Shown here piece by piece: positions 32,457 through 38,180 of a stretch of 64,000 nucleotides of DNA; the stretch's first letter is position 1; each line of letters begins with the position of its first letter. A program made the position numbers and the translations under genes. The notes beneath the pieces were generated by a model, which had not been told where the DNA came from, ran no database searches, and saw nothing but the letters and a program-made list of their open reading frames with translations. This DNA comes from Centroberyx gerrardi (Eukaryota; Chordata; Actinopteri; Beryciformes; Berycidae), in the NCBI RefSeq assembly GCF_048128805.1, contig NC_136000.1, positions 12,606,854 through 12,670,853 on the forward strand. The letters run 5' to 3'.

Positions 32457-35400
32457 ATGATGAAATCAAAGGATTCGGGCTCTGCCATCATCCAGACCCA
32501 GCAGCTGCATGCTGCCATGGCTGACACCCACCTGGAGCACATGTGCCTGCTGGACATCGACTCCGAGCCCGCCGTGTCTCGCAACACCGGCATCATCTGC
32601 ACAATCGGTCAGACCCAATCCCAAATACCACTGATTCAGAGTCTGATGTTACACTGACACTTCATTCAAATGATCTTAGTGGGTCTTTATTATCCATATG
32701 CTTTAGTCCTGTATCTTTCTGTAAGCTCCCTTCTTTCGCCTGTCTCGATGCAGGACCCGTCTCCCGTTCTGTGGACATGGCCAAGGAAATGATCAAGTCT
32801 GGGATGAACATTGCAAGAATGAACTTCTCTCATGGCACACACGAGGTCAGTGCAGGATGAGAAACACAAAAAATGATGTATTTCAATGGTGGTGCCTGAT
32901 TATGATTTACGATTTGCGCCTCCTAAGCTTCATGCATTTAACGGCGCAACAGCCAGTGTGACATTACACTTGCACCCTGGTAACTGTAAGTTGATCTGTG
33001 AGCTCGTATTTGCCCCTCAGTGGCTCCAGTGTCTTCTATATGTTGCAGCTTGTCCAGCCAACTGCATCATAGATCATAGTCAGTTTGAACTGACCTTAGA
33101 CTACTGACCTCTCCCCTTTAAAAGTCATGCCTTTTTACCTTTTTCACCGAGTGTCACCTGAGTGGATGAGCCTAAAAACCTGTCACCAGCTGTAGTATGG
33201 TTACCCAGAGTTGCCTTTGATATTTTAATCGTTGCCCTTCAAAGGTTAACAGCAGTGATTATTTCTTTTCGGTGTAACTCAACTCTCAGACTGACTCTTG
33301 AATTGCCTGTGCATTGGTGTGGTCGAGAATTGTAGGCACCGCTTCAGGGTTGACAACGATATGAAGTAAAGCACAGCAGGAAAGAAGTCAGTCTTATAAA
33401 CTGCAGTGTGTACATTTCAGCCTTTGCCCCCATATGTTATCAACAGCATACATGAAAGTTAAAAAATTCCAGGATAACACTAAATGAATAAGCAATTTGT
33501 TATGAGAAGGGCAGAGGAAATTTGACCTCTGTCTCACTGGTGTGTCAGTTGTCGGTACAGCTATAAATAGTCTTCTCTGAGTATCAGCCTCTTAGCAACA
33601 GTGTATTCAGTGAGGCCAACATGGGCAAGGCATTCGTTATGGCTGAAGACAGTACTCAATGTTCAGAATGGACTTTTCCTTTGTCATTCTGCTTTTTTGT
33701 ATGTTGCATGCATTTAGTACATCCATGTAATGCTTGTGGAGAGTATTTGATTTCTAGAACTTGCATTTGTATAGACTGTTGGTCAAACTTTATGACAACT
33801 ATTCGTTGAATGCCTCATTACAGTCTTTGTAAAGCTATTTATATACACCGAGCTTGGAAAGTGTCATGTGCCGAACATGTGTTGCAGTTGCCCAGTCAAG
33901 ATTTATTACATAGTTATGTAACCTGTGCTGTCCAGTGTGACAGTGTGCGACCAAGTTTGTCCCCCTCCTACTACTTTGGCAACTTAATTTTCCTCTTTGT
34001 TTGACACATTGACCCCAACAATGTAACCCCTCTCCACCTAAATTAAGAAAATGATTATATTAATGACTTACTGTTAATTATTGTAGTGTAATAATTTGTT
34101 CACTTTGGATGCTATACTGGATATATTTTAGTATTCAGTACAGTTATTGTAGTATTCAGTACAGTCAGTTTTTTTTACCTGGCTATGTGCTGAAATGTCT
34201 TTTTATCCCACAATGTTTTGCTAATCTATTATGTGACTATTTATTATTTTTTCATTTTTATCGCATGATGTGTACGTTTTAAACTAAATAGTATTGTGAT
34301 GCTCACATATTTCAGATGACATGTCAGCTGCCATGTGAGTACTTCATAAACTTAAACTTATAACACTTGTCTAATGCCTCATACCATACAGTACCATGCC
34401 GAGACCATCAAGAACGTCCGTGAGGCAACTGAGAGCTTTGTGCCCGGCACTGCTGAATACAGACCAGTGGCCATTGCTCTGGACACCAAGGGACCAGAAA
34501 TCAGGACTGGACTCATCAAGGGAGTGAGTTATAGCCAAATAGAGCTACATAAGGAAAGCTTTAAGGCCTGCTTTCTCAATTATGAGCCCATTTCCAGTGT
34601 TATTACAGAACTGTATTGATTGATTTTGTGCGCAAATAACAGCTCTCTCCTGGTCTTGTTTAGAGCGGCACTGCTGAGGTTGAGCTGAAGAAGGGCGAGA
34701 CCATCAAGCTCACTTTGGACGACCAGTACATGGAAAATTGTGATGAGAAAGTGCTGTGGCTCGACTACAAAAACATCACCAAGGTTGTGGAGGTCGGAAG
34801 CCACATCTACATTGATGATGGTCTCATGTCCCTCAAGGTTAAGGAAGTTGGTAAGCCAGTTTGTTCCATCCAGTCTGTCCATACATACAGATAGACTGGA
34901 CTGTTTTGTTTTTGTTTTTACCTTTTTGCCAAATGGTGGAAATCAAGCCTATCTTCATTCTGTACATCCTAAGGCAACAACTACCTGATGTGTGAGATTG
35001 AGAATGGCGGTATGCTGGGCAGCAAGAAGGGTGTCAACCTGCCCGGAGCTGCTGTGGACCTCCCTGCTGTGTCAGAGAAGGACATTCAGGACCTGCAGTT
35101 CGGTGTGGAGCAGGGCGTCGACATGGTCTTCGCCTCCTTCATCCGTAAGGCCGCTGACGTGCAAGCCGTCAGGAAAGTGCTGGGTGAGAAGGGTAAGGAC
35201 ATCAAGATCATCAGCAAGCTGGAGAACCACGAGGGTGTGCGCAGGTGGGTGGATGACCAACGGACAGATCTGAACCTGTAGATAATTGCCACACAGAATT
35301 ATTTCATCCCGTGATCTCGTTGCTCTGTAGATTTGATGAGATCCTGGAGGTTAGCGACGGTATCATGGTTGCCCGCGGTGACCTGGGTATTGAGATCCCA

Positions 35401-37590
35401 ACAGAGAAGGTCTTCCTCGCCCAGAAGATGATGACCGGCCGCTGCACCAGGATCGGCAAACCCATCACCTGTGCTACACAGGTCCGTGACATTATCAGTA
35501 AGAGGACTCGTTGACAGAGAAGAATCCCTGTGCACCAGCTAAAAAAAAAAGTGTATAAACATGCATGTGCAGTAAATCTCTTGCTGTTGTCCCTCAGATG
35601 CTGGAGAGCATGGTCAAGAAGCCACGTCCTACTCGTGCCGAGGCCAGTGACGTCGCCAACGCTGTCCTGGACGGCAATGACTGCATCATGCTGAGCGGTG
35701 AGACCGCCAAGGGAGATTACCCCCTGGAGGCAGTGCGCACACAGCACAGGGTGAGAGCGCCCCCCACTGGTCACATGCTCCTAGTGTTTCTTCATGTTCA
35801 GTCATGTGTCAAGGTGCATGCATGAATAACATACAACTGACCAACACTTCAGACTCTTGAGGCAATAAATGTCAACACTATGAAAGACTTTTTATATCTG
35901 TTAAAGCTAGCTGTATGGTGTGAGTTACATTTTGTACATCATGTAGAATGAGTATATAGCATAATAACTTCCATGTTGTGAGCACAGTATATGTTTGGGT
36001 TTCGGCTTGGGTTTTACTAACTGCTTGTATATTATATGTTGAACTTGCTTTGTGTATCCCTGTTTCTCCCACCCCTCCCTCCATCCATCTGCTACCAAAC
36101 CTGGCATCTATTCATGTCTCTTGCATTTTGCTGTTAACTGTGTGATCATATTGCTCAATTAGCATGTGTCTGAGGATCTGCACCGCACAGCAACAGTCCC
36201 TGGACATCATGGCCGTCGCTGTTGTTTAGCTTCAGGTCTCAGTGTGCTCTCAGGTATGCAGACCTCTGCGCTTAGGTTAACCGTCCTTTGTTTTCTTACC
36301 CTTACATTCATCTGCCACTTAGCTTAGATTTAGAGTGCATCATGGTTGTCCTATAGAATACAAACTAACTCCTGGAGGTGTAAACAAGGTGTTTGATTCA
36401 AGCCTGACACTACTCTCCCTCTCTTTCATTTTTTATTTGTCTTCACATGTTCAGATTGCCCGCGAGGCTGAGGCAGCCATGTTCCACAGGCAGATGTTCG
36501 AGGAGCTGCGCCGCACCTCTCATCTGACCCGCGACCCCACCGAGTCTGTCGCTATCGGTGCCGTCGAGGCTTCCTTCAAGTGCTGCGCCAGCGCCATCAT
36601 CGTGCTCACCAAGTCTGGCAGGTACGGATGCAAGGAGAAACGTACCTCCCACAAGTCTCTGCTTTACCCACTCAAAGCTCTGAGTCACAATATTCTCCAG
36701 CACAGCATTAACTATGAGGGAAGAAATGGGTGCATCATCGTATCTCTTTATCCACTGCTGGACCTCTAACAGAAGCCCTTGGCTCATACGAAGTGTGCCA
36801 ACTTTCACTGCACTCACAATCTGTAATCCACTTCTGACCTTTTGAGATCTGAACCCTGACATTTTAGCAGTTAATTTTAACTCCCTGTTCATTCCTCTCC
36901 ACTTGGGAGTTCACACGCACAAGCACATGATACAGAAAACATACTGTCAGCTGGGTGGATTTCATCATGATAATGGCATAATTTAGTTTTGGCATTCACT
37001 TAAATCGATGATTTTAAACATTATTTGATCCCCTTTCAGTTCAGTATATTTGTAGGAATTGTCTCACAGTGTAACTTGTACTTGTCACCTGCAGGTCTGC
37101 TCACATGCTGTCGAGGTACAGGCCCCGTGCCCCCATCATTGCTGTGACCCGCTGTGGCCAGACCGCCCGCCAGGCCCACCTGTACCGCGGCATCTACCCC
37201 GTCCTCTACACCAAGCCCGCCAATGACGTCTGGGCAGAGGATGTTGACCTGCGTGTGAACTTTGCCATGGAAGTTGGTGAGTGGTCCATCTGATTGTTTA
37301 TGGGTTTAGTTCAAATTAGTCAAATAAGGGGATTTTTGTCAGTCAAGTAAAATAAGAAGAGGGAGTGACAGAGAGATATAGAAGAATTTTGTAGGACTGC
37401 CTATGTTTACATATTAATATGGTTTGGTAGCTTCCCTGCACCGCTCTATCACTAATTCTGTACTTACTCTTCTCTGTCCATAGGCAAGTACCGCAAGTTC
37501 TTCAAGTCTGGTGATGTGGTCATTGTTGTGACCGGCTGGCGCCCAGGCTCTGGTTACACCAACACCATGCGTGTTGTGCTTGTGCCTTGA
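32457..37590 (+). CDS. pkm: Pyruvate kinase, muscle type (PKM)
   Basis: The last step of glycolysis: phosphoenolpyruvate + ADP to pyruvate + ATP, a cytosolic homotetramer. Coding exons are 32457-32607, 32754-32845, 34392-34523, 34664-34850, 34974-35244, 35331-35481, 35598-35750, 36455-36621, 37095-37276 and 37484-37590. Coding length is 1593 nt, 530 aa (human 531), and several exon lengths (271, 151, 153, 167 and 182) equal the human ones as I know them. Motifs are [28 protein letters not shown], the catalytic Lys in [66 protein letters not shown] and the C-terminal [15 protein letters not shown]. The mutually exclusive exon position is filled by one exon (36455-36621). Its VLTKSG keeps the Lys that in human M2 (K433) belongs to the fructose-1,6-bisphosphate loop, so an allosteric enzyme is predicted. 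A second ATG directly follows the first. The gene converges on hcn4. Confidence 0.97.
36163..36253 (+). pseudogene. decayed alternative (M1-like) pkm exon
   Basis: This lies in the intron between pkm exon 8 and the used 167-nt exon, where mammalian PKM keeps the M1 exon. GTGTCTGAGGATCTGCACCG matches the used exon's TTCGAGGAGCTGCGCCGC region and reads [10 protein letters not shown] frame shift later, CAACAGTCCCTGGACATCAT reads [12 protein letters not shown], like the STDLMEAMAM of mammalian M1. The end GTGCTCTCAG followed by GTATGC resembles the used exon's final GTGCTC...GGCAG|GTACGG. At about 91 nt with a TAG at 36227-36229, it is shortened, frameshifted and stopped. The homology is by eye. 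Confidence 0.5.
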
Positions 37591-38180
37591 ACTTCATCAA
37601 AGGACATTAGTAACCGCTCCCCCTCCCCTCTCCTGTAACAGCCCTCCCCCTCTAGAGGTCATCTTCTTCCCACAAGACTTTTCCTAAAGCCGTCTACGTA
37701 ACCAACAGAAAGACAACACCAGGCCACTTCTTCAAAGGACTTCTGGTGTTGTCGTTCATAGACAGTAACTCCATGATTCCTGTCACCGTCTAGTTCTCCT
37801 GCCAGAGGCTGCACTCGACTGAAAACCTTTTAATGCAAACTCTCCTGTCATGTGTTTTGGTCACTTTGCCACGTGCCTGACTGCGTTTGCATGTTGAACA
37901 GTGTGGAGATCAATGTTCCTCTGCGTTCAGTGTAAAAGGAGTCAGATGATTGTCACACAAATACACTCCAAGAACACATTATGTCTGTTCCTTAATCTTT
38001 TGTTCATTTACGGTATGAGTACCTGGGATGAACAAGTGCAGCTCTGCACTGTAATGGTTTTCTCCTGTGTGACGTACAGAACTCAACTGACATTTGGTAC
38101 ACAGTGCCCATCTGGATTGTGAAGTGGTCTGGCATGATTTTGTTTCCATCCATTAAAAGGAACACTTGGATCAACTGTGT
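37591..38180 (+). other. pkm 3' UTR with ATTAAA polyadenylation signal
   Basis: About 590 nt follow the stop, beginning with a C-rich stretch. ATTAAA at 38152-38157 is the likely signal, with GT/T-rich sequence just after it. An AATAAA further on, at about 38464, is an alternative. Confidence 0.55.

Follow-up and report, generated by a model that had tools for sequence, protein, structure and literature searches.

A probable relic of the M1-type alternative exon in intron 8 of a pkm gene of the fish Centroberyx gerrardi

Choosing between PKM1 and PKM2 sets metabolism to the muscle type or the growth type, a standard textbook example of a switch, and in the human gene the M1 exon precedes the M2 exon. 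Duplicate genes can lose alternative exons: a 2002 study of mitf reportedly deals, to go by its title, with a gene duplicated into two copies, each of which saw different alternative exons decay. That gene encodes a transcription factor, whereas the case described here concerns a mutually exclusive exon of an enzyme. Among the closest described systems is the vertebrate PKM pair itself (human exons 9/10; zebrafish pkma1/pkma2; PMC6177464). As given in the available part of Stone et al. 2018 (PMC6177464), transcripts of zebrafish pkma include either exon 9 or exon 10, and pkmb of zebrafish and other teleosts has 11 exons, is without alternative splicing and groups with PKM2. The teleost duplication is placed at about 250-350 million years in the portion of PMC1890551 consulted.

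The pkm gene examined here likewise has one intact M2-like exon that is nearer human M2 than M1, as in teleost pkmb (PMC6177464). The available text of that paper mentions no remnant of the lost exon, whereas a stretch within intron 8 of this gene is very probably one, namely a decayed M1-type member of the pkm mutually exclusive exon pair. Set beside the vertebrate pair as described in the same available text, it agrees in position, phase, M1-like 3' residues and the M1-before-M2 order, and the paralogue on another contig resembles the intact case; it differs in that M1 is truncated, without acceptor and out of frame, only the M2-like exon being intact. No described pkmb M1-exon relic was found in the literature searched. 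The absence of alternative splicing in teleost pkmb is already published (PMC6177464, as far as its available text goes).

The window, meaning the whole analysed stretch of 64,000 nucleotides, is C4:12606854-12670853, and searches of the fish's own genome covered the 779-Mb assembly of 278 contigs. On its + strand the window carries an intact pkm gene, whose exons, when joined, translate without interruption as far as TMRVVLVP and a stop. The parts of the gene that matter here are as follows.
32457..37591, + strand: pkm coding region, here named pkmb (joined exons, open frame; start codon assumed)
35598..35750, + strand: pkm exon 8
35751-36454, + strand: pkm intron 8, 704 nt
36455..36621, + strand: exon 9, M2-like, intact, 167 nt (from translation and splice sites)
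37095..37276, + strand: pkm exon 10

Exon 9 is the sole intact exon of this gene's alternative region and shares 42/56 residues with human M2 and 37/56 with human M1. The neighbour of pkm on the - strand encodes ion-channel and cyclic-nucleotide-binding domains and is presumably hcn4; the Ig-domain gene beyond it, which we take to be neuroplastin-like, extends a gene order resembling human 15q24. Rfam at gathering thresholds gave no match anywhere in the window, and collections of viral and prokaryotic contigs yielded no pkm from a vertebrate.

The sequence-only reading of this DNA had supposed a second pkm, and a search of the fish's own genome with the human M1 peptide located it: the four scored matches among the best candidates were two on contig C1, the window exon and one on C12. 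The C1 gene holds two open tandem 167-nt exons with a spacing of 631 nt. The first shares 39/56 residues with human M1 and 37/56 with human M2, and so is only slightly nearer M1; the second shares 36/56 with M1 and 41/56 with M2. Judged from their sequence words (HSTD and LASA in the first), order and position, the first is named M1-like and the second M2-like. An intact M1-like exon in the paralogue, which had been put forward as something to look for, is therefore present, open and ahead of the M2-like exon. It is mainly because the C1 gene retains both exons that it is named pkma here and the window gene pkmb. Both loci show a tail-to-tail arrangement of pkm and an hcn4-like gene, the two being close neighbours in the window and about 40 kb apart on C1; queries with rpp25, arid3-like and neuroplastin-like sequences gave no match in the 90 kb of C1 sequence searched.

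The stretch in intron 8 lies where an M1 exon is expected, after exon 8 and before the M2-like exon, in the same orientation. Two extents can be given for it.
36125..36253, + strand: probable relic of an M1-type alternative exon, about 129 of the ancestral 167 nt (5' limit inferred)
36163..36253, + strand: 91-nt fragment lying between an AG and a GT, free of stops when read from 36163

The shorter of these had been singled out as exon-like from its letters, and the likeness proved real. Against the first C1 exon, the stretch scores with z values of 8.6, 8.0 and 7.1 over shuffled introns under three scoring schemes, and 0/5000 shuffles reach its score in each scheme with either of two nulls. 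The local alignment sets nt 26-158 of the C1 exon on window positions 36152-36254, with 74/103 columns identical and gaps of 9, 11, 7 and 3 nt. Of the proposed bounds, 36163 and 36253, the donor end holds and the 5' start does not: homology reaches 36152 in the local alignment and about 36125 in an end-to-end alignment, a limit that derives from our fixing the start of that alignment by hand at 36125. The end-to-end alignment shows another 10 nt lost ahead of the donor; the deletion claimed relative to 167 nt is borne out as four local gaps and one before the donor; in all, the acceptor and about 40 nt are gone. In a five-way MAFFT alignment, where the gaps are placed differently, the relic is identical to the first C1 exon at 73/134 columns, to the window M2-like exon at 65/133, to the second C1 exon at 54/134 and to the C12 exon at 60/134.

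Controls behaved as chance would have it. The second, M2-like C1 exon gave scores reached by 1851, 4821 and 4507 of 5000 shuffles (three schemes), the C12 exon by 667, 2066 and 2854 of 3000, the reversed first C1 exon by 2449 and 2778 of 3000, and C1 exon 8 by 429/3000. When 480 real blocks of 704 nt from the same fish were searched on both strands, the strict score was reached by one, which holds part of the C12 exon, and the permissive score by three, two with the homologous C12 exon and one with hcn4 coding sequence.

The reading frame of the stretch needs some care. A stop codon had been claimed, and a TAG is indeed present; it sits in the frame of the shifted middle, not in that of the two conserved end blocks, and the frame from 36163 is free of stops. 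The middle is shifted as had been said, and the 11- and 7-nt gaps jointly restore the frame, which is why that block seemed frame-shifted. Its supposed likeness to STDLMEAMAM fell away: the block, IMAV, aligns in our own reading of the alignment with IGAV of the first C1 exon. The end block is the most M1-specific part (human M1 KCLAAALIVLTESG; C1 paralogue SLASAFIVLTGSG). With 91 to about 129 nt remaining, the relic has neither the 167-nt length nor frame compatibility with exons 8 and 10. Placed between exon 8 and either exon 9 or exon 10, the 91-nt segment introduces a premature stop in both arrangements, and the relic therefore cannot be a productive M1 exon.

Splice signals are unevenly preserved around it.
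36254..36259, + strand: retained 5' splice site, CAG/GTATGC, PWM score 4.37
36161..36162, + strand: first AG after an AG-free stretch, inside the former exon; at most a cryptic acceptor
35988..36160, + strand: AG-free zone of 173 nt, spanning the former acceptor region and the initial part of the former exon
36015..36021, + strand: TACTAAC, a putative branch point far upstream that may have served the lost exon
36057..36096, + strand: pyrimidine-rich tract, 34/40, a density equalled just before exon 9 (36413)

By a simple PWM, the donor at 36254 is the best of the 53 GT in intron 8, the next scoring 1.75 and the authentic exon 9 donor 4.09; 0.74% of the 3761 GT on the + strand score at least as high. 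The local match to the first C1 exon ends within 1 base of it. At the other end, the AG-free zone is tied for third longest of 4098 + strand AG intervals, and a zone this long arises in 4/5000 dinucleotide and 26/5000 mononucleotide shuffles of the intron; at ten acceptors of window pkm exons the AG-free stretches run to 19-51 nt, and on C1 they are 268 nt for the first exon and 45 nt for the second. Since no AG occurs from 35988 to 36160, there is none near the inferred ancestral acceptor, expected at about 36124, and part of the AG-free zone is therefore dead exon. A long AG-free zone is the mark of a predicted distant branch point, and such branch points accompany alternative splicing and have been reported in mutually exclusive exons, according to the available parts of PMC1431707 and PMC7969005. 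The zones here (173 nt for the relic, 268 nt for C1), with a branch-point-like word upstream, resemble those exons as far as described there (PMC1431707, PMC7969005), except that the window zone also covers part of a dead exon and its branch point is a candidate only. TACTAAC occurs once on the window + strand and twice on the - strand. The words ACTAACTGC, CATCTGCTAC and TTCATGTC stand in the same order in the relic and C1 AG-free zones, and the likeness of the two upstream introns is only suggestive (43-542/3000 shuffles; shared 8-mers 165/2000). As a side observation, the C1 first-exon donor, GTAGGCAGG, and the relic donor (36254-36264), GTATGCAGA, differ by one base in a UAGG word, and intron 8 has an additional TAGG at 36273. 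Such a word is bound by hnRNP A1 beside human exon 9, as UAGGGC in intron 9 (PMC11117501, in its available part).

These signals bear on whether the segment is still spliced at a low level as a poison exon, with the AG at 36162 as acceptor and the GT at 36254 as donor, so that part of the pkmb transcripts would undergo nonsense-mediated decay. The strong donor would serve this, as would the position of the AG at the very end of the 173-nt AG-free zone, which contains TACTAAC and a pyrimidine tract, and inclusion would bring a premature stop with exon 9 and with exon 10 alike. However, that AG lies inside the former exon, the ancestral acceptor site has none, the bases just upstream of 36162 are not pyrimidine-rich, and the codon-position pattern and deletions resemble decay. 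We consider continued use as a poison exon unlikely; most likely the relic is now simply skipped as intron.

The lost exon could instead have been a local duplicate of the M2-like exon rather than an M1 exon. Nothing else in intron 8 matches exon 9 as well as the relic does, its score being reached by 1-4/1000 dinucleotide shuffles under four schemes and by 4, 13 and 24 of 5000 local-composition shuffles under three; it scores 119 against a null of 73.5. Coding stretches of other window genes score equally against exon 9 under permissive scoring, and the match to exon 9 by itself would be sequence evidence of moderate strength. The first C1 exon scores higher (154), whereas the second C1 exon gives no signal, and part of the relic's likeness to the window exon arises because that exon itself resembles the first C1 exon (131/167). 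The claim that the window gene lost its M1 option is supported in the same way, the relic resembling the first C1 exon and not the second.

Diagnostic columns can be used to ask the same question. In the five-way alignment, 12 of 25 agree with the first C1 exon, 5 with an M2 exon and 8 with neither. The last block carries most of this (n=11: 7 M1-like, 1 M2-like, 3 neither), while the middle part favours M2 (n=7: 2 M1, 4 M2, 1 neither). In pairwise alignments the diagnostic sites vary with the reference, from 9:1 for M1 when aligned to the first C1 exon, to 10:2 for M2 against the window exon, where most sites are thus M2-like, and 5:3 for M2 against the second C1 exon. In alignments anchored on the donor, the GT at 36254 ranks 2nd of 7514 GT sites against human M1, and human M2 gives no qualifying alignment at that GT among the same 7514 sites; with the window's own M2-like peptide, position 36253 ranks sixth of 7514. 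The corresponding nucleotide alignment to the window exon prefers a GT 22 nt downstream (7, 90 and 129 of 5000 in three schemes). Frameshift-tolerant protein alignment to the first C1 exon is weak (23, 127 and 360 of 2000 at three frameshift costs); with the human peptides, 223 and 660 of 1000 shuffles reach the M1 score, and 56 and 566 the M2 score. The human exons at DNA level, too distant to decide, give signals that are at best weak (M1 236-1223/2000; M2 73-648/2000). Our confidence in the M1-type relic is slightly lowered, and the weight given to an M2 duplicate raised, because the first C1 exon is only a little closer to human M1 than to M2; even so, such a duplicate seems improbable beside a decayed M1-type exon.

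A fragment recently copied or inserted here from the C1 M1 exon, for instance through gene conversion, would also be M1-like, and the C1 copy exists to supply it. We regard this as highly improbable: just 74 of the 103 aligned columns are identical, with four local deletions and one before the donor, the fragment sits at the expected place between exon 8 and exon 9, it is a single match in the genome search, and some words are common to both upstream introns. Chance likeness in a GC-balanced patch of intron is scarcely credible, for although the human M1/M2 DNA signal is at best weak and window coding stretches elsewhere reach similar permissive scores, 0/5000 shuffles match the first C1 exon as well, the second exon, the C12 exon and the reversed control give nothing, and the local match stops within one base of the best donor in intron 8.

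Taking the stretch as a decayed M1-type exon, a course of events can be proposed. The two pkm genes may go back to the teleost whole-genome duplication. The pkma copy would then have retained the M1/M2 choice, so that the M1 exon of the pkmb copy may have become dispensable; it would have been inactivated by acceptor loss and deletions, the M2-like exon staying constitutive. The relic bears several internal deletions, some not multiples of three, its expected acceptor AG is gone and its good donor is kept. Identity by codon position between the relic and the first C1 exon is 26/34, 26/35 and 22/34, compared with 46/56, 53/56 and 28/55 for the constrained M2-like exon pair; the fall at second positions and the lost periodicity indicate neutral decay of the relic. 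By sequence, the duplicate gene on C1 appears to keep the exon lost from the window gene, as duplication-degeneration of an alternative exon requires, and the relic exemplifies the loss of alternative exons known from other duplicate genes. With M1 dead in pkmb but intact in pkma, there is direct sequence evidence that a single member of a gene pair can lose an alternative exon which its partner retains.

Neutral rates in fish are a few times 10^-9 substitutions per site and year. At such rates the divergence suggests, as a rough estimate, that M1 was lost tens of millions of years ago, the identity of the relic, and hence the date, being inflated by the aligner's choice of columns. We infer that the loss came long after the duplication, since an exon freed from constraint at that early date could no longer be recognised. 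It is possible, and we put it forward only tentatively, that M1/M2 switching in pkmb went on working through most of the period that followed the teleost duplication, and that M1 disappeared from this lineage at a recent date. If so, the uniform lack of alternative splicing in teleost pkmb would reflect repeated independent losses, caught here part-way, and the donor and upstream branch-point region would have outlasted the exon. The relic can still be read, which opens both the sequence of acceptor loss and deletions and the age of the loss to testing in a range of fishes.

Several smaller observations concern the related exons. Window exon 9 begins AAMFHRQ, as in M1, and its DNA (36455-36621, set beside C1:25132162-25132329) matches the first, M1-like C1 exon at 131/167 and the second, M2-like one at 127/167. 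An old gene conversion between tandem exons is a possible source of this mixed likeness; an M1/M2 chimaera was considered and rejected, the split statistic being non-significant (307/5000). The third related gene, at C12:13018671-13018838, gave a single exon match (ICREAEAAIFHQQLFEELRRL...) and is one that we take to be pklr. In the 5' part of the C1 pkm (C1:25141258-25141859), two separate tblastn matches, both including pkm residues 46-81, lie within about 600 nt and are perhaps a duplicated exon or an over-extended match.

Published primer sites can also serve as a guide to naming. Trout and zebrafish sites given in the available parts of PMC6243097 and PMC6177464 were scored on C1 and on the window, with a mixed outcome. 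The trout pkmab pair is nearer C1 (18/19 and 21/21; window 16 and 18) and the trout pkmba pair nearer the window (16/19 and 19/20; C1 15 and 15); the pkmbb primers tie, with 13/20 and 15/20 at both loci, and the pkmaa primers fit poorly at both. For zebrafish, the pkmb guide is nearer the window (21/23; C1 17), two pkmb genotyping primers tie between the loci, the pkma2 genotyping primers are slightly nearer the window (17/22 and 17/20; C1 15 and 15), and the two TALEN sites point opposite ways, with 15/21 and 19/19 in the window and 16 and 17 on C1.
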